Below are positions 45,327-53,077 of a stretch of DNA of 64,000 bases, piece by piece. Made by a program: the position numbers and the translations under genes. Under the pieces are notes generated by a model, which was not told the DNA's origin, searched no databases, and saw only the letters and a list, made by a program, of their open reading frames with translations. The first letter of the stretch is position 1. Each line of letters begins with the position of its first letter. Source of the stretch: Serpentinicella alkaliphila (GTDB lineage: Bacteria; Bacillota; Clostridia; Peptostreptococcales; Natronincolaceae); assembly GCF_018141405.1 (NCBI RefSeq), contig NZ_CP058648.1:635001-699000 (forward strand), written 5' to 3'.

Positions 45327-46343
45327 TTATCCTCTATATCTATTTTTGGTATTTTTTTGCTCTAAAAGGTGAATAGAGTCTAATGCTCTACCAGTTCCTT
45401 TTGCAACACAGGAAACAGCATCTTCTGCAATATATACTGGTATCCCTATTCTCTTCTCGATTAATTTGTTAAGTCCCCACAGTAATGCTCCGCCTCCAGT
45501 CATAACAATGCCATGATCTGCAATATCAGAAGCTAATTCTGGTGGAGTTTTTTCTAAGACAGCATGTACAGCATCTACAATAGCTGAGACATTTTCATCT
45601 AGCGCTTCTAGCATTTCTTCACTATCTACTTCAATATTTACTGGTAGACCAGAAATTAAATTTCTACCTCTAACATTCATCTTAGTTTCTTTATCTCTAG
45701 GATATGCAGCACCTATTTGAATTTTCATATCCTCTGCAGTTCTCTCACCAATCATCACTTTATGTTTCTTTCTCATATAACGAACGATTGCCTCATCAAA
45801 TTTGTCCCCAGCTATTTTTATTGAAGTACTAACTACAATACCACCTAATGAAATAACTGCAACATCAGTTGTTCCCCCACCAATATCTACAATCATATGT
45901 CCTGTTGGTTGAGCAATATCTAATCCAGCCCCTATAGCTGCAGCAATAGGCTCCTCAATCAAATAGGTCATTCTTGCTCCTGCTTCATTAGAAGCATCAA
46001 TTACTGCTCTCTTTTCAACCTCAGTCACTCCACTCGGCACACATACTATTATTTTGGGTTTAAAAAACAATCTTGTTCCCACTGTTTTCCTAATAAAGTA
46101 TTTTAACATTTTTTCTGTAATTTCATAATCAGATATGACACCTTCTCTTAGAGGTCTAATCGCAACAATATTTCCTGGTGTTCTTCCAAGCATATTTCTT
46201 GCATCCTGCCCAACTGACAGTATTTCTCCAGTATTATTATCAATAGCTACAACAGAAGGTTCTTGAAGCACAATACCCTTACCCTTAACAAATACCAATA
46301 CGCTAGCGGTTCCTAAATCAATTCCAATATCCGTACCAAACAT
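45327..46343 (-). CDS. mbl: MreB-like cell-shape protein Mbl
   Basis: A 338-residue bacterial actin: phosphate-1 loop DIGIDLGTASVLVFVKGKG, phosphate-2 loop VDIGGGTTDVAVISLGG, and adenosine loop GIVMTGGGALLWGLNKLI. It forms filaments under the membrane and guides lateral wall synthesis. The position upstream of the FlhO/FlhP-type rod genes and, beyond the insertion, downstream of spoIIID identifies it as the Mbl member of the family. Confidence 0.94.
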   Translation of the reverse strand: MFGTDIGIDLGTASVLVFVKGKGIVLQEPSVVAIDNNTGEILSVGQDARNMLGRTPGNIVAIRPLREGVISDYEITEKMLKYFIRKTVGTRLFFKPKIIVCVPSGVTEVEKRAVIDASNEAGARMTYLIEEPIAAAIGAGLDIAQPTGHMIVDIGGGTTDVAVISLGGIVVSTSIKIAGDKFDEAIVRYMRKKHKVMIGERTAEDMKIQIGAAYPRDKETKMNVRGRNLISGLPVNIEVDSEEMLEALDENVSAIVDAVHAVLEKTPPELASDIADHGIVMTGGGALLWGLNKLIEKRIGIPVYIAEDAVSCVAKGTGRALDSIHLLEQKNTKNRYRG

Positions 46344-46741: not shown

Positions 46742-48334
46742 CTAGCTATATTTTGCTTCAGTACTTGTTTTGTCTATAGATATTATTTCACTGGTTTCTA
46801 ACACAACAGTCTTAGGTGTTAACTGAGCTCCATAATCTTCTTTTAACCACTTTAATAATGAAAACAGCATAGTTATAAGTATTGGCATTAATGGTAAAGC
46901 AACTACAATTGACGCTAGTTGTACAGCTGTTAACCCACCAGTAGCAAGAAGTCCTACAGCAAAAACTCCTAAGAAGATTGCCCATAGAGTTCTATTCCAT
47001 TTATTTGGTTCTTCATGCCCACTAATTTCTTTTGTAACCTGTGCTGAAAGAGTAAATGCAGCTGAGTTTAAAGTTGTTGCCAGAAACACTATACAAAGAA
47101 TAGTAAATATAGGTATAATTAGCCATTTACCTGCTGGTAGAGTGCTCAAAATAGCTATAATTGTACCTGGAGTACCTACTTCACTAACAATCTTCGCCAC
47201 ATCCAAAGCACCAGATGTCTGTACATCTATAGCGTAACCGCCCCATATTGCGAAAAATACCCAACATCCAAAACTTCCAAAAATTAATTCTCCAAATACT
47301 ACCTGCCTAATTGTTCTGCCTCTAGATATTCTTGCAACAAACAATCCCATCATTGGTGCATAGGCAATCCACCAAGCCCAGTAGAATACTGTCCACCCCT
47401 CAGGGAACCCAGCGTTGGCTATTGGATCTGTCCATAGACTAAGTCTTATAAAATCATTAAACATTAAACCAAGACTATTTACCCAGAGATTTAATATGTA
47501 AATAGATGGACCTGCTATAAATACAAATATCAGTAAGAAATAAGCAATGTACGTATTAAGATCAGCAAGTTTTGCAATGCCCTTTTGTAATCCAGCGTAT
47601 ACAGTAATTGAAATAAGACTTGTGAAAATTGTTAATGTAATTAATTGTAGTTGAAAACTCTCTGGTATTCCTAACATATTAGCAATTAATGCTGTTACTA
47701 GAGGTACTGCTAAACCTAAAGATGTTCCAACCCCACCAATCATAGCAAAAATTACCAATGTGTTAATTAATTTACCTAATGTTCCCTCTGCCCTACCACC
47801 TATAACTCCCTTACAAGCAGTGCTGAGTCTTAAAGTAGATGCCCTTTTAACATGTATAGCGTAGGCTATTGGAATTGTCGGCAATGCATATATTGCCCAT
47901 GGCGTAATTCCCCAGTGAAACTGACCTAGTACCCCTGCCCACTCTGCAGCCATAATTGATCCTGCCTCAACTCCTAAAGGTGGTCCTCCCATATAGTAAA
48001 CTGGCTCTATAAACGCCCAGTATACTATAGCAATACCTATACCTGCACAAAACACCATTGCAGCCCAGGTGTAATCAGAAAATTCAGGTTTATCCTCAGG
48101 AGCACCTAATTTTATTCTCCCCCACCGACTAGATCCAAGCCATACAAGAAACAGAACAGAAAACAAACCAAATAGTAAAAATGACCATTTAAAATTAGTA
48201 GTTATAAACGCAAACACCGAATTTACCATAGCGGATCCCTTCTCTGGATTAACCACTAATGATACTGAAAAAAGAAGTGTTACAATAATTCCAGGTAACA
48301 TTAAAGAATAATCTATATTACTCTTATTTTTCAT
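46742..48334 (-). CDS. BCCT family transporter (betaine/carnitine/choline/DMSP type)
   Basis: A 530-residue protein with 12 predicted membrane helices. BCCT landmarks are GIGIAIVYWAFIEPVYYMGGPPLG (about 97-120), FHWGITPWAIYALPTIPIAYA (about 139-159) and VFYWAWWIAYAPMMGLFVARISRGRTIRQ (about 319-347), whose Trp residues line the binding site for a quaternary-ammonium or sulfonium group. It imports such a compound with an ion or by exchange. It is the last gene of a three-gene unit with two CoA-transferases, so the cargo is probably metabolised as a CoA thioester rather than kept as an osmolyte. No large regulatory tail as in osmosensing BetP. Confidence 0.92.
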   Translation of the reverse strand: MKNKSNIDYSLMLPGIIVTLLFSVSLVVNPEKGSAMVNSVFAFITTNFKWSFLLFGLFSVLFLVWLGSSRWGRIKLGAPEDKPEFSDYTWAAMVFCAGIGIAIVYWAFIEPVYYMGGPPLGVEAGSIMAAEWAGVLGQFHWGITPWAIYALPTIPIAYAIHVKRASTLRLSTACKGVIGGRAEGTLGKLINTLVIFAMIGGVGTSLGLAVPLVTALIANMLGIPESFQLQLITLTIFTSLISITVYAGLQKGIAKLADLNTYIAYFLLIFVFIAGPSIYILNLWVNSLGLMFNDFIRLSLWTDPIANAGFPEGWTVFYWAWWIAYAPMMGLFVARISRGRTIRQVVFGELIFGSFGCWVFFAIWGGYAIDVQTSGALDVAKIVSEVGTPGTIIAILSTLPAGKWLIIPIFTILCIVFLATTLNSAAFTLSAQVTKEISGHEEPNKWNRTLWAIFLGVFAVGLLATGGLTAVQLASIVVALPLMPILITMLFSLLKWLKEDYGAQLTPKTVVLETSEIISIDKTSTEAKYS

Positions 48335-48364: not shown

Positions 48365-49543
48365 TTAAACTACCTTTTTACTTCTTAGATTTTGAACTTC
48401 CTCAACTGTAAACCCCATTTTAGTAAGTATGTCTTCCGTATGTTCTCCCAGCAATGGTGAAGAAATTTTTATAGCTGGAGGATTCTCGGATAACTTAATT
48501 GGATTTCCAACTAGTTTTATCTTACCTAATCCAGGATCATTAAGTTCAATTATCATATCTCGAGCTTTCAAATGAGGATTTTCGAAAGCTTCCTGTATAT
48601 TCTGAACTGATGCCACTGGAATACCTATTTTCTCCAACTTCTCTACTACTTCATTTCTAGTTTTCTCAGTAAAACTGTCTTCAATAATTTCCTTCAGCTC
48701 AAGATTATTTTTAATACGTGCTTCATTATCTTTGAATTTTTGATCAGAATGTATATCAGGTCCATTCAATACATTACAAAACTCTTTCCACATCTTATCA
48801 TTTTTTACTGCGATACTGACATATCCATCCTTTACTTTATAAACATCACAAGGTGCATAGTGGGCATTCATATTTCCCATTCTACTAATTATTTTACCAA
48901 ATGCCGTATATTCTAATATTGGATTTGTTGCCATTTGAATAAGAGATCCCAACATAGTTACCTCTACCTTCTGTCCCTTTCCAGTCTCTAACTTATTATA
49001 ATATGCAGTTGTTATACCTAAGAGTAACATCAAACCAGTATAACTATCCCCAATCGCTGGTCCAATTTTCGTTGGATCCCCCTCTGGAAATCCAGTCAGA
49101 TCCATAATTCCGCTCATAGCCTGAACAACATTGTCATATGCTGCAAATTTAGATAGTACACCCGAATCACCAAATCCCGATATAGACGCATAAATAATAT
49201 CTGGTTTAATTTCTTTCATCTGTTCATATCCAATTCCATAATTCTCTAAGGTCCCTGCCTTAAAGTTAGAACATACTATATCCGCATCTTTGACTAAATC
49301 GAAAATAATCTTTTTACCCTCTTCACTTTTAATGTTTAGAGTAATGCTTTTTTTCCCTCGATTAAAAGAGCTATAGTATCCACTATAATTGTTTTTAAAT
49401 GGCCCCCACCCCCTTGAAACATCTCCTTCAATTCTTTCTATCTTTATAACTTCTGCCCCAAAGTCTGCTAAGTTTAATGTGCAAAATGGCCCAGCATATG
49501 CATGGGTAAAATCAATTACTTTTACACCTTCTAAAAGATTCAT
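48365..49543 (-). CDS. Class III CoA-transferase (CaiB/BaiF family), catalytic Asp present
   Basis: A 392-residue family III CoA-transferase. The opening LEGVKVIDFTHAYAGPFCT and the block NRGKKSITLNIKSEEGK are typical. The Asp that forms the acyl-enzyme anhydride is present at D166 in GPAIGDSYTGLML. It moves CoA from one acyl-CoA to another acid. It follows its paralogue by 51 bases and precedes the transporter by 30 bases. Likely substrates are trimethylammonium acids such as carnitine or butyrobetaine, or DMSP; the sequence does not decide. Confidence 0.92.
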   Translation of the reverse strand: MNLLEGVKVIDFTHAYAGPFCTLNLADFGAEVIKIERIEGDVSRGWGPFKNNYSGYYSSFNRGKKSITLNIKSEEGKKIIFDLVKDADIVCSNFKAGTLENYGIGYEQMKEIKPDIIYASISGFGDSGVLSKFAAYDNVVQAMSGIMDLTGFPEGDPTKIGPAIGDSYTGLMLLLGITTAYYNKLETGKGQKVEVTMLGSLIQMATNPILEYTAFGKIISRMGNMNAHYAPCDVYKVKDGYVSIAVKNDKMWKEFCNVLNGPDIHSDQKFKDNEARIKNNLELKEIIEDSFTEKTRNEVVEKLEKIGIPVASVQNIQEAFENPHLKARDMIIELNDPGLGKIKLVGNPIKLSENPPAIKISSPLLGEHTEDILTKMGFTVEEVQNLRSKKVV

Positions 49544-49594: not shown

Positions 49595-50770
49595 TTAATT
49601 TTTTGCACTTTCCATATACTCTTTATTAATTCCAAATTCATTTAATATGTCATCTGTATCTTTTCCAAGTTCTGGTGCACATGAATCAAGTATAATAGGA
49701 GTATCACTTAATTCTATTGGTAGTTTTGGTACTTTGGTTTTACCCACTTCATTATCTACTATTTCCACCATAAAGTCATTTTCAACTATATGTGGATGGG
49801 TTACTATGCCCGGTACATCTAATACTTCCCCACTAGGTATGCCTACGGCTCTACATCTTTTCTCGATGTCGTATTTTGAAGTAGTTACTGTATACGACTC
49901 TACAATAGGTCTTAATTTATTTAGGTAATCATCACATCTTCCTTCATTAGTACTAAACCTAGGATCATCAATTAATTCTGGCATATAAATGACATGCTTA
50001 CATAGGTTTTTCCACTGTTCTTCATTGGCTACACCAATTGCAACGAAACCATCATTAGTCTTAAAAGTATCATAGGGAGCACAGGCAGGATCAAAATTTC
50101 CTTTTCTTGTCTGAATTTCTCCGCTCATAGAGTATGTAGCAGGAGCAGCTTCAATTATCGAGAATAGGGAATCTAATAATGAAACATCTATTTTTTGTCC
50201 TTTACCATTGATTTGTTTATTTATTAGCGCTAGCGTTATCCCTGTCGCTAGGTACCCAGCACCATAATACTCGCCCATAGCTACTCCCGCTTTGATTGGG
50301 TAACTATTAACAGTTCCAGTCATGTCCATAGAAACACCTAAAGCCTGTGCAACACAACTAGAACCTACTTTGTTTTTATACGGACCTGTGTGTCCAAAGT
50401 ATGAGTATGATGCATAAATTATTTTAGGATTTATTTTAATTACATCATCATAACCCAGTCCTAAACTCTCCATAACACCAGGACCATAGCTTTCGCAAAT
50501 TATGTCCACCTTTTCAATAATTTGTTTCAATATCTCTATCTCTTCTCTTTTGTTAATATCTAAAGTCATACTCTTTTTTCCAGAATTTAAGTAATTGAAG
50601 TATAAGCTTTTCCCTGCCTTTTGCGGTTTCCATTTTCTGCTTTTATTGCCTTCGTTAGGTTTTTCTACTTTTATTACCTCAGCTCCAAAACTAGCCAAAT
50701 ACATTGTTGTAAGGTTTCCTGCAAGGTTTTCTGTGAAATCCAGTACCTTAACTCCTCCAAGTGCTTTCAT
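49595..50770 (-). CDS. Class III CoA-transferase homologue, catalytic Asp replaced by Glu
   Basis: A 391-residue paralogue of the next gene, beginning LGGVKVLDFTENLAGNLTTMYLASFGAEVIKVEK, full length and undamaged. The site aligned with the catalytic Asp is E167 in AGVAMGEYYGAGYLA. That suggests either a changed mechanism or a structural partner that pairs with the Asp-bearing protein, as in heteromeric BbsEF or the two halves of DddD. It is the first gene behind a sigma54 promoter, with GAGAGGGGAG before its ATG. Confidence 0.9.
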   Translation of the reverse strand: MKALGGVKVLDFTENLAGNLTTMYLASFGAEVIKVEKPNEGNKSRKWKPQKAGKSLYFNYLNSGKKSMTLDINKREEIEILKQIIEKVDIICESYGPGVMESLGLGYDDVIKINPKIIYASYSYFGHTGPYKNKVGSSCVAQALGVSMDMTGTVNSYPIKAGVAMGEYYGAGYLATGITLALINKQINGKGQKIDVSLLDSLFSIIEAAPATYSMSGEIQTRKGNFDPACAPYDTFKTNDGFVAIGVANEEQWKNLCKHVIYMPELIDDPRFSTNEGRCDDYLNKLRPIVESYTVTTSKYDIEKRCRAVGIPSGEVLDVPGIVTHPHIVENDFMVEIVDNEVGKTKVPKLPIELSDTPIILDSCAPELGKDTDDILNEFGINKEYMESAKN

Positions 50771-50882
50771 TTTAAAACTCCCCTCTCTAAAATGTTTTTA
50801 GATAGTAATATTAACTAAGACTTTATAAGAACATTGACATTTAGTATATTTGTCCTAGTATATTTCTTTGTTAAGTATATAG

Positions 50883-50898
50883 AGCAAAAACTATGCCA
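50883..50898 (-). promoter_or_regulatory. Sigma54 (-24/-12) promoter of the CoA-transferase/BCCT operon
   Basis: On the minus strand TGGCAT-AGTTT-TTGCT matches the sigma54 consensus (TGGCAY-N5-TTGCW) at every conserved base, with GG and GC ten bases apart. It lies about 113 bases before the first CoA-transferase start. The neighbouring gene codes for a sigma54 activator. Confidence 0.85.
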
Positions 50899-50961
50899 AT
50901 CTATACATTGTTAATTTTCCAACATTTATCATGTATACAATCAAATAGTATTTAAATACAA

Positions 50962-50995
50962 AAAAATAGTTATTCAAGTTTGAATAACTATTTTT
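50962..50995. promoter_or_regulatory. Palindrome 1, likely activator binding site (and possible terminator)
   Basis: A 16-bp perfect inverted repeat with a 2-base centre (core TTATTCAA-GT-TTGAATAA). It lies about 65-95 bases upstream of the -24 element, the usual distance for a sigma54 enhancer. A and T tails at both ends mean it could also end the activator transcript. Confidence 0.6.
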
Positions 50996-51043
50996 CAAAA
51001 TCACCTTATAAATATTGATAATTAGCTAATACCTAAGTAGTTA

Positions 51044-51069
51044 AAATCTATTCAATTTTGAATAGATTT
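51044..51069. promoter_or_regulatory. Palindrome 2, likely activator binding site
   Basis: A 12-bp perfect inverted repeat (core CTATTCAA-TT-TTGAATAG) with the same TATTCAA-N2-TTGAATA core as palindrome 1. The two centres are about 78 bases apart. Degenerate related sites follow at 51068-51079 and 51097-51113. Confidence 0.6.
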
Positions 51070-51128
51070 CAAATATGAATAATCGAAAATAAAATTTTAT
51101 TATTGAATAATAATATCTTTGTTAACAG

Positions 51129-52508
51129 TTATTTATTCAATTCATTATCAATATATTTTTTTATAAGTCTATAAGCCTTTGGTTGACTGATTTTAAGCTC
51201 TTGAGCAACCTTAACACTATTTTTATACTTATTATATGTTTTAATAATAATTTGCTTTTCTAGTTCTTCTTTCATTTCATCCAAAGACTTGTTGTCTGTA
51301 TTAATTGTAGTTTTAGGTTTTTCATATACGTATAAATGTTTTGGTATATGCTGCGCAGTAATTTCAATATCCTCAACTAGAACTACAAGCTTTTCAATTG
51401 TATGAGATAACTCCCTAATATTACCAGGCCATGAATACGAACCTATTATCTTAATTGCTTCATTTGATATTGTATGATTTCTTTTATATGCTTTATTAAA
51501 CAAATTAATATAGTAATAAGTTAAGGCCAGTACATCTTCTTTCCTTTCTCTTAAAGAAGGAATTTCTATTTCAAAAACATTAAGTCTAAAATATAAATCT
51601 CTCCTAAAAGTCCCTAAGTCTACCATCTGCAATAAATTACAATTTGTTGCTGCAATTACTCGTATATCAACCCTAATGCTTTTCTGTCCACCAATAGGAA
51701 TAAACTCTTCATCTTGAATTACTTGTAGTAATTTTGCCTGTAGAGCTATTGGTATTTCCGATATCTCGTCCAAAAACAAGGTTCCTCCATTAGCCAATTC
51801 TATTAGGCCTTTTTTACCCTCCTTATTAGCACCTGAAAAAGCTCCTTTACAATATCCAAACAACTCTGATTCAATAAGATTATGACTTATACTTGCACAA
51901 TTAATATTCATAAAAGGTTTATCTCGTCTATCACTTTTTGAATGAATATACTTTGCTAAAAGACTTTTACCTGTCCCTGTCTCGCCCAGTATTAAGCAAG
52001 GAGATTTAACTTTAGAAATCTTCTTACATAAAGAAGTTATTTCTCTCATCTGATCACTTTGATAAATCAAATTCACATCTGAATCAACTAAATTTTTATG
52101 AGTTATCCCTACTTCATTAAATTCGCACTGTTGATGGGAAAGTTTATTAATACTATCTATATCATTCACACTCATTGCTACATATTTTATATCACCATTT
52201 TCATCAAATATAGGAACAGAAACCGTTAAAACATCTGCACCTAGTTTAGTAATTTGTTTGCGAGCTACCATTTTCTTCGTTTTATAAACTATCGGAAGAG
52301 TTGATTGTCCCCAATACGTTCCATCAAAAGATTGAAATTTTTTTCCAATCATACTCTCTGGAGAGACCCCATAATGTCTATAGCTTGCTTTATTTATATA
52401 AACTAGAGTATAATTATTATCAAAAACCATTATTTCGTCATGAAGATTATCGATGATTTCTTTAAAATTATCATTTTCAAAAACTTGCTCAATATTATCG
52501 AAATTCAC
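51129..52508 (-). CDS. Sigma54-dependent activator with PAS domain
   Basis: A 459-residue enhancer-binding protein: N-terminal PAS (about 10-120), central AAA+ domain with Walker A LGETGTGKSLLAKYIH, the sigma54-contact loop written GAFSGA instead of GAFTGA, Walker B GGTLFLDEI, and an R-finger region YFRLNVFEIEIPSLRERKED, then a C-terminal Fis-type helix-turn-helix (KVAQELKISQPKAYRLIKKYI). It should activate the adjacent -24/-12 promoter in response to a ligand sensed by PAS. The GTG at 52508 is chosen since AAGGAGG lies seven bases before it; the frame is open 13 codons further up. Confidence 0.92.
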   Translation of the reverse strand: MNFDNIEQVFENDNFKEIIDNLHDEIMVFDNNYTLVYINKASYRHYGVSPESMIGKKFQSFDGTYWGQSTLPIVYKTKKMVARKQITKLGADVLTVSVPIFDENGDIKYVAMSVNDIDSINKLSHQQCEFNEVGITHKNLVDSDVNLIYQSDQMREITSLCKKISKVKSPCLILGETGTGKSLLAKYIHSKSDRRDKPFMNINCASISHNLIESELFGYCKGAFSGANKEGKKGLIELANGGTLFLDEISEIPIALQAKLLQVIQDEEFIPIGGQKSIRVDIRVIAATNCNLLQMVDLGTFRRDLYFRLNVFEIEIPSLRERKEDVLALTYYYINLFNKAYKRNHTISNEAIKIIGSYSWPGNIRELSHTIEKLVVLVEDIEITAQHIPKHLYVYEKPKTTINTDNKSLDEMKEELEKQIIIKTYNKYKNSVKVAQELKISQPKAYRLIKKYIDNELNK

Positions 52509-52783
52509 GTATAACCCTCCTTGTACTTTGCTACCAAACTTCTTCAACCCACCAATATATCTTAAGTTAAAAAAATATAACCTATTTTGTATAATTCTAT
52601 TTTGATATCTATTACCTTCTTTTATTGACTATATTACATAAATCTAAGTGTAATATGCTCTGCTTAAAATAGAAAAATAGATATTAAATATATCTACTTT
52701 TTTAGTATAACACAGTATTTACTTTTTCAAATGAGTTTGTTTCTTCACCATTATAAATGTTTAATTTTTATGCTAGCACACTG

Positions 52784-52807
52784 AAAAGAGTGGATCAATC
52801 CACTCTT
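52784..52807. terminator. spoIIID terminator and right copy of the 22-bp direct repeat
   Basis: AAGAGTGGA (52786-52794) pairs perfectly with TCCACTCTT (52799-52807) around TCAA, followed on the minus strand by TTC. It lies 10 bases after spoIIID. The same sequence with two changes is found at 46614-46635 at the far edge of the inserted operon. Confidence 0.75.
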
Positions 52808-52816
52808 CTCATGATC

Positions 52817-53077
52817 TTATCTGCTATTAACAGCTTTTTTATATTTCATCCTAGTCGCTTTTCCACCTCTAATATGCCTCTCAGCTTTATTAATATCAAG
52901 AATATTTTTCACTTGATTCGCTACTAAAGGGTTTATCTTAGGAAGTCTTTCCGTTACATCCTTGTGGACTGTACTTTTACTTACGCCAAAAACTTTAGCG
53001 GTTTGCCGTACCGTAGCCTTCTCATCTAAAATAAAATTGGCTATCTGCACAACCCGCTTTTCTATATAGTCTTTCAA
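52817..53077 (-). CDS. spoIIID: Sporulation regulator SpoIIID
   Basis: An 86-residue DNA-binding protein of the mother cell. YIEKRVVQIANFILDEKATVRQTAKVFGVSKSTVHKDVTERL includes the helix-turn-helix (about 21-42), and the C-terminal basic tail (ERHIRGGKATRMKYK) that contacts the minor groove is present. It reprogrammes sigma-E genes. It normally lies directly upstream of mbl; here about 6.5 kb of other genes lie between. Confidence 0.96.
   Translation of the reverse strand: MKDYIEKRVVQIANFILDEKATVRQTAKVFGVSKSTVHKDVTERLPKINPLVANQVKNILDINKAERHIRGGKATRMKYKKAVNSR

Follow-up and report, generated by a model that had tools for sequence, protein, structure and literature searches.

Which described systems come closest to a locus in which a sigma-54 promoter, a PAS-type activator, two CoA-transferases and a BCCT transporter stand together? 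On the regulatory side, Nie et al. (2019) reconstructed the sigma-54 regulons of clostridia, and their paper (PMC6615313) describes 39 activator groups with the promoter consensus TTGGCATN5TTGCT, palindromic upstream sites, several to an operon and most of them 100-250 bp upstream, and an activator gene lying beside its single target operon. On the enzyme side, the anaerobic clostridium Emergencia timonensis has a gamma-butyrobetaine cluster in which the class III CoA-transferases BbuB and BbuC, an obligate hetero-oligomer, sit with a BCCT transporter (bbuE); this cluster is substrate-induced, and no regulator was described for it (PMC8364193). The CaiTABCDE carnitine system of E. coli also combines a BCCT transporter with a class III CoA-transferase, and DddD of the DMSP system, an enzyme of the CaiB fold with the Asp in only one of its two halves, has DddT as its BCCT partner.

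The locus analysed here lies in the window, a 64-kb stretch of the Serpentinicella alkaliphila genome (Table 1). It shares with the clostridial regulons the promoter consensus, the multiple palindromic upstream sites and the position of the activator gene beside one target operon, but none of the 39 target operons listed in the accessible part of that study contains a BCCT gene or a CoA-transferase pair. The regulator group is not recognisable among those 39 groups as they are presented there, and may match one of them under another name. With the bbu cluster the locus shares the two class III CoA-transferases and the BCCT transporter; unlike that cluster, it has no adjacent BbuA TMA-lyase, ferredoxin or thioesterase, and mreB comes after the operon. 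It differs from CaiTABCDE in the absence of caiA, caiC, caiD and caiE, in CoA-transferases that do not reach the corresponding sequence models, and in its sigma-54 and PAS control. Its CoA-transferases resemble DddD in having one partner with and one without the Asp, and its BCCT aromatic box is identical to that of DddT, but they are two separate proteins with low identity to DddD and another position in the tree. The switch is genuine, has good support and follows the textbook sigma-54 mechanism. A literature search for the sigma-54/BCCT/betaine combination found no such regulon described, and within the literature accessible to us there seems to be no account of the regulator group, of its class of sites or of its behaviour as a cassette. 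We read the locus, with a probability of about 0.87, as a complete sigma-54 switch in which a PAS activator acts on its own dyads to drive an operon for uptake and activation of a betaine-type compound.

Table 1. Features of the switch and of its surroundings (positions are those of the window)
Feature	Position	Strand	Remarks
mreB	45327-46343	-	right boundary of the insert, outside the switch
BCCT transporter	46742-48334	-	Pfam; Na2 site and the CaiT/DddT aromatic box retained
Class III CoA-transferase subunit 2	48365-49543	-	CoA_transf_3, E 1e-125
Class III CoA-transferase subunit 1	49595-50770	-	CoA_transf_3, E 3e-104; subunit-1 clade
Sigma-54 -24/-12 promoter, TGGCAT-AGTTT-TTGCT, TGGCATAGTTTTTGCT	50883-50898	-	0 mismatches, direct read
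Putative proximal upstream activator site, AAAAATAGTTATTCAAGTTTGAATAACTATTTTT	50962-50995		centre 80.5 bp upstream of the -24 element; also a hairpin
Putative distal upstream activator site, AAATCTATTCAATTTTGAATAGATTT	51044-51069		centre 158.5 bp upstream of the -24 element
Possible degenerate third site, directly adjoining the distal one	51066-51081		TTCA-N4-TGAA at 51068-51079; weak evidence
PAS - sigma-54 AAA+ - HTH enhancer-binding protein	51129-52508	-	GTG start, 459 aa
spoIIID	52817-53077	-	left boundary of the insert, outside the switch

The sigma-54 promoter and the paired palindromes

A complete sigma-54 control region had been proposed for this spacer in a first-pass annotation, and all of its pieces are present in the right order. 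The TGGCAT-N5-TTGCT promoter is exact, lies where it had been placed, and is the sole perfect -24/-12 match found by a pattern scan of the window. It faces the CoA-transferase operon, as had also been claimed, the two CoA-transferase genes being assigned by Pfam and lying downstream on the same strand; from its position, transcription would be expected to start near 50872. The genome (3,257,581 bp scanned; 3.26 Mb) contains 13 exact TGGCAYN5TTGCW sites, against none for the reversed control pattern, and encodes a full RpoN, with Sigma54_AID, CBD and DBD domains, at G000:C1:1952631-1954016.

The two palindromes reported upstream, both with TATTCAA-N2-TTGAATA, were found at the positions given for them. 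Their cores, TATTCAAGTTTGAATA at 50971-50986 and TATTCAATTTTGAATA at 51049-51064, have no mismatches and are the only exact copies in the whole genome, 78 bp apart in this one spacer; the two copies elsewhere in the genome that have one mismatch have no sigma-54 site nearby. The full perfect palindromes extend further than first described, with arms of 16 bp (proximal) and 12 bp (distal), and are the two longest in the window when loops of up to 4 are allowed. Short palindromes are cheap in a spacer of 20% GC but this pair is not: when the 358-bp spacer was shuffled 2000 times with its dinucleotides preserved, two arms of at least 12 bp never appeared. Three of the five TTCA-N4-TGAA sites of the window also fall within it. 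The distance between the two site centres corresponds to about 7.4 helical turns, which by simple phasing would put them on different faces of the DNA.

Conservation of the module and its sites

The same four-gene module occurs in genome G084 (locus L066), which belongs to the same taxonomic order as Serpentinicella, with the gene sequence activator, CoA-transferase 1, CoA-transferase 2, BCCT, and in Anaerotignum sp. MB30-C6 (L072), where the activator gene comes last, after the BCCT gene. Both have a sigma-54 element approximately 80-95 bp before the gene for CoA-transferase 1, and the three activators group together in the activator tree (support 90/93), nested in a clade of 16 (100/100), nearly all of which adjoin a BCCT gene. 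The Anaerotignum promoter is preceded by the dyads GAGTCA-GTGA-TGACTC and GAGTCA-ATAT-TGACTC, spaced by 42 bp (4.0 turns), unlike the 78 bp of the window, and the L066 promoter by GAGTCT-TCTG-AGACTC. Dyads of GAGTCA are present at L245 and L246, and GAGTGC-N4-GCACTC at L248. When the window element is centred on its dyad, as TATTCA-N4-TGAATA, half-site positions 2, 4, 5 and 6 match GAGTCA and two differ.

The 17 upstream regions compared contain 24 occurrences of GAGTC/GACTC, where shuffles gave 2.2 on average and never more than 7, and 13 perfect 6-N4-6 dyads against 4.4, a number reached in none of 300 shuffles; dyads with spacers of 6-8 bp are also enriched, mostly through hairpins. In 322 kb of loci, 10 of the 14 motif matches fall inside the 1.5% that lies upstream of sigma-54 promoters, and when L066 and L072, in which the motif was first seen, are left out, 7 of 11 do so. 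The HTH residue before KVA covaries with the outer base of the dyad, R occurring with G, Y with A and V with T, a suggestive pattern in which the window is the single case of the V/T pairing. Given that related promoters repeat this dyad register and that a single HTH residue changes along with the base, the two palindromes are very probably the upstream sites of the activator; the register, the placing before sigma-54 promoters of other lineages and the HTH covariation link them to this activator family and support the control region first proposed.

Might the palindromes instead serve the activator gene only as terminators or hairpins and bind no protein? Both fold as RNA hairpins, and the proximal one, directly after the activator gene and flanked by an A-run and a U-run, gives a hairpin of -15.4 kcal/mol with the U-run on the minus strand; similar hairpins are found at L245 and L248. 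However, the two palindromes have only the inner TATTCAA-N2-TTGAATA in common and their outer arms differ, a terminator scan gave none at this place, and the dyad register is conserved across lineages. In Anaerotignum the dyad pair stands before the promoter even though the activator gene is found at the opposite end of the operon. A role in termination alone, which we consider very improbable, leaves the shared core unexplained. In the window the proximal palindrome is likely to have a second use, in terminating transcription of the activator gene, and such a dual role is compatible with a complete switch. Putative activator sites lie inside terminator-like hairpins directly behind the activator gene in three loci (L245, 8301-8330; L248, 7877-7904; and the proximal site of the window), where one element apparently does both jobs.

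The activator and its candidate ligands

Pfam bears out the assignment of the adjacent gene to a PAS-type sigma-54 activator, with matches to Sigma54_activat (PF00158, E 7e-67), PAS_4 and HTH_50. Its start was corrected to the GTG at 52508, which lies behind an AGGAGG ribosome site and is likelier than the TTG at 52547. The Walker A motif GETGTGKS is present, GAFSGA is a T-to-S variant of GAFTGA, and the model of the PAS domain (pLDDT 81) matches many PAS structures. The best NCBIfam match is PrdR (NF041552), and a PrdR-type proline regulator would imply an operon for proline or proline betaine; in Cytobacillus, a BCCT relative does sit with proline dehydrogenase genes. The score, however, is 372.4 bits against a cut-off of 795, the HTH is unlike that of ordinary activators of the same family, and the PrdR sites published as TGT-N10-12-ACA (PMC6615313) are unlike the dyads of the window. 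We give a proline regulator only a slight chance.

The BCCT-linked activators have in common a set of PAS aromatic residues (H/Y23, F/Y29, Y33, F58, W66 and Y75) that is absent from the activators of the neighbouring clade, which adjoin EamA-type or amino-acid exporters. Because BCCT linkage correlates with these residues, the ligand is likely to be a betaine-type zwitterion. From the PAS domain and the repeated linkage of the family to BCCT genes and betaine/DMSP enzymes, we infer ligand-responsive control and a quaternary compound as the ligand; carnitine, crotonobetaine, gamma-butyrobetaine and DMSP are indistinguishable in this role from sequence. In the mechanism that we propose, activator dimers would bind the distal and proximal TATTCA-N4-TGAATA dyads, the PAS domain would sense the ligand, and the AAA+ ring would loop to the sigma-54 RNA polymerase poised at TGGCAT-N5-TTGCT and melt the promoter, switching on CoA-transferase 1, CoA-transferase 2 and the BCCT importer. 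The BCCT transporter would import a zwitterionic betaine-type carboxylate, and a two-subunit CoA-transferase would make the CoA thioester of the substrate, for fermentation or for use as an electron acceptor.

The transporter, the CoA-transferases and their substrate

In whole-genome searches the two CoA-transferases and the BCCT transporter were the sole members of either family. At the position of Frc Asp169, which is the catalytic Asp in other class III enzymes, subunit 1 has Glu and subunit 2 Asp, a pattern which suggests that only one of the two subunits may be catalytic. Among solved structures the BCCT transporter matches DddT best (E 6e-133; CaiT, 3e-86), with the Na2 positions of DddT kept and Na1 altered; the aromatic box is identical in CaiT and DddT, so that residue comparison is undecided on the substrate. 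With only 33-37% identity to the BCCT proteins of L066 and L072, it is not their closest relative, and its substrate may therefore differ from theirs. Carnitine-type compounds are the most likely substrate, and DMSP-type compounds and others are also candidates.

One specific proposal assigns carnitine, crotonobetaine or gamma-butyrobetaine to the operon as its substrate and has the pathway completed by acyl-CoA dehydrogenases encoded elsewhere. The bbuBC/bbuE genes provide a precedent, related activators adjoin a carnitine acyltransferase, and the genome encodes four acyl-CoA dehydrogenases, two of them directly behind sigma-54 promoters. Against this, the module has no bbuA, bbuD or bbuF and no caiA or caiD, the CoA-transferases score 181.1 and 99.9 bits with the CaiB model (NCBIfam NF002914), far under its 413-bit cut-off, and the acyl-CoA dehydrogenase promoters lack the dyad. 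As a full pathway it is a tentative proposal, somewhat short of even odds. The two dehydrogenase genes stand in tandem behind etfBA (L186; G000:C1:597724-600574), and each is immediately preceded by an exact sigma-54 promoter of its own; a regulon shared with them was rejected because the dyad is absent there.

Alternatively, the operon could be a DMSP module, with the BCCT transporter as DddT and the CoA-transferase pair as a split DddD, forming DMSP-CoA with release of DMS. This would agree with the best solved match of the transporter, with one subunit lacking the Asp as in DddD, and with locus L262, where a damaged relative of the activator adjoins BCCT and DddD genes. But the aromatic box is common to CaiT as well, and DddT-like BCCT transporters often do not transport DMSP (PMC13270143). 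The CoA-transferases are encoded by separate genes, have only 27-34% identity to the DddD domains over part of their length and fall outside the clades of those domains; a split-DddD identity of the pair was rejected. The DMSP module as a whole is unlikely.

Apparent gain of the module between spoIIID and mreB

The activator, CoA-transferase and BCCT genes form a 6.2-kb insertion between spoIIID and mreB, which are 6477 nt apart here and 182-382 nt apart in 16 of 16 relatives, these being the family genomes in which both genes were found on one locus. At a cut-off of 1e-108, no match to the activator was found in the 19 other genomes of the family. Given the short spacing in the relatives and the lack of an activator match, the four genes look like an acquired cassette. 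A palindrome directly behind spoIIID, AAGAGTGGATCAATCCACTCTT at 52786-52807, is probably the spoIIID terminator.

A family of BCCT-linked activators

Around twelve related activators have BCCT genes as neighbours, together with other catabolic genes. Those of L244, L247, L248 and L249 adjoin a mandelate-racemase-superfamily protein, those of L243 and L245 a pyruvate-formate-lyase-type enzyme with a superfamily member, and those of L251 and L252 a UxaA-like pair with a carnitine acyltransferase; at L260, outside the 16-activator clade, MttB (MTTB) is beside the activator. We lean, by a narrow margin over the contrary, towards an undescribed clostridial PAS/sigma-54 family for betaine-type zwitterions, marked by the HTH sequence SQxKAxRLIxKY, the PAS aromatics, a site of the GAGTCA-N4-TGACTC class and BCCT linkage. 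It would act as a mobile plug-in cassette with interchangeable catabolic enzymes, those of DMSP and carnitine chemistry included, and changes at one or two HTH residues could shift its site specificity, the window being an example. Such a regulator family flags betaine/DMSP catabolic cassettes in anaerobes, many of them of unknown chemistry. The fermentation of DMSP by clostridia is an old observation, and its genes become searchable through the combination of activator, site and BCCT gene. The covariation of HTH and site, with at least three specificities, provides a small natural series for decoding the DNA choice of activators.

Several of the related loci have features of their own. At L262 (8201-12389; genome G103), an anaerobe of the same taxonomic order as Serpentinicella has a gene for a full-length DddD of 838 aa with a BCCT transporter and a sigma-54 promoter; this DddD is 44% identical to the presumed DddD of the Sinorhizobium fredii NGR234 plasmid and keeps the Asp in its C-terminal half, and the adjacent activator gene, outside the 16-activator clade, is damaged by one in-frame TAA. 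The acyltransferase of L251 (10106-11881) and L252 (4479-6254) is a choline/carnitine O-acyltransferase-family protein (PF00755), a type unusual for bacteria, encoded in a sigma-54 operon with the UxaA-like pair and a BCCT transporter. In L065 (6654-14668) and L067 (934-8270), AtoDA, a beta-keto acid cleavage enzyme, a PanE-like dehydrogenase and a BCCT transporter accompany a CoA-transferase pair; this uncharacterised cluster possibly handles a betaine.
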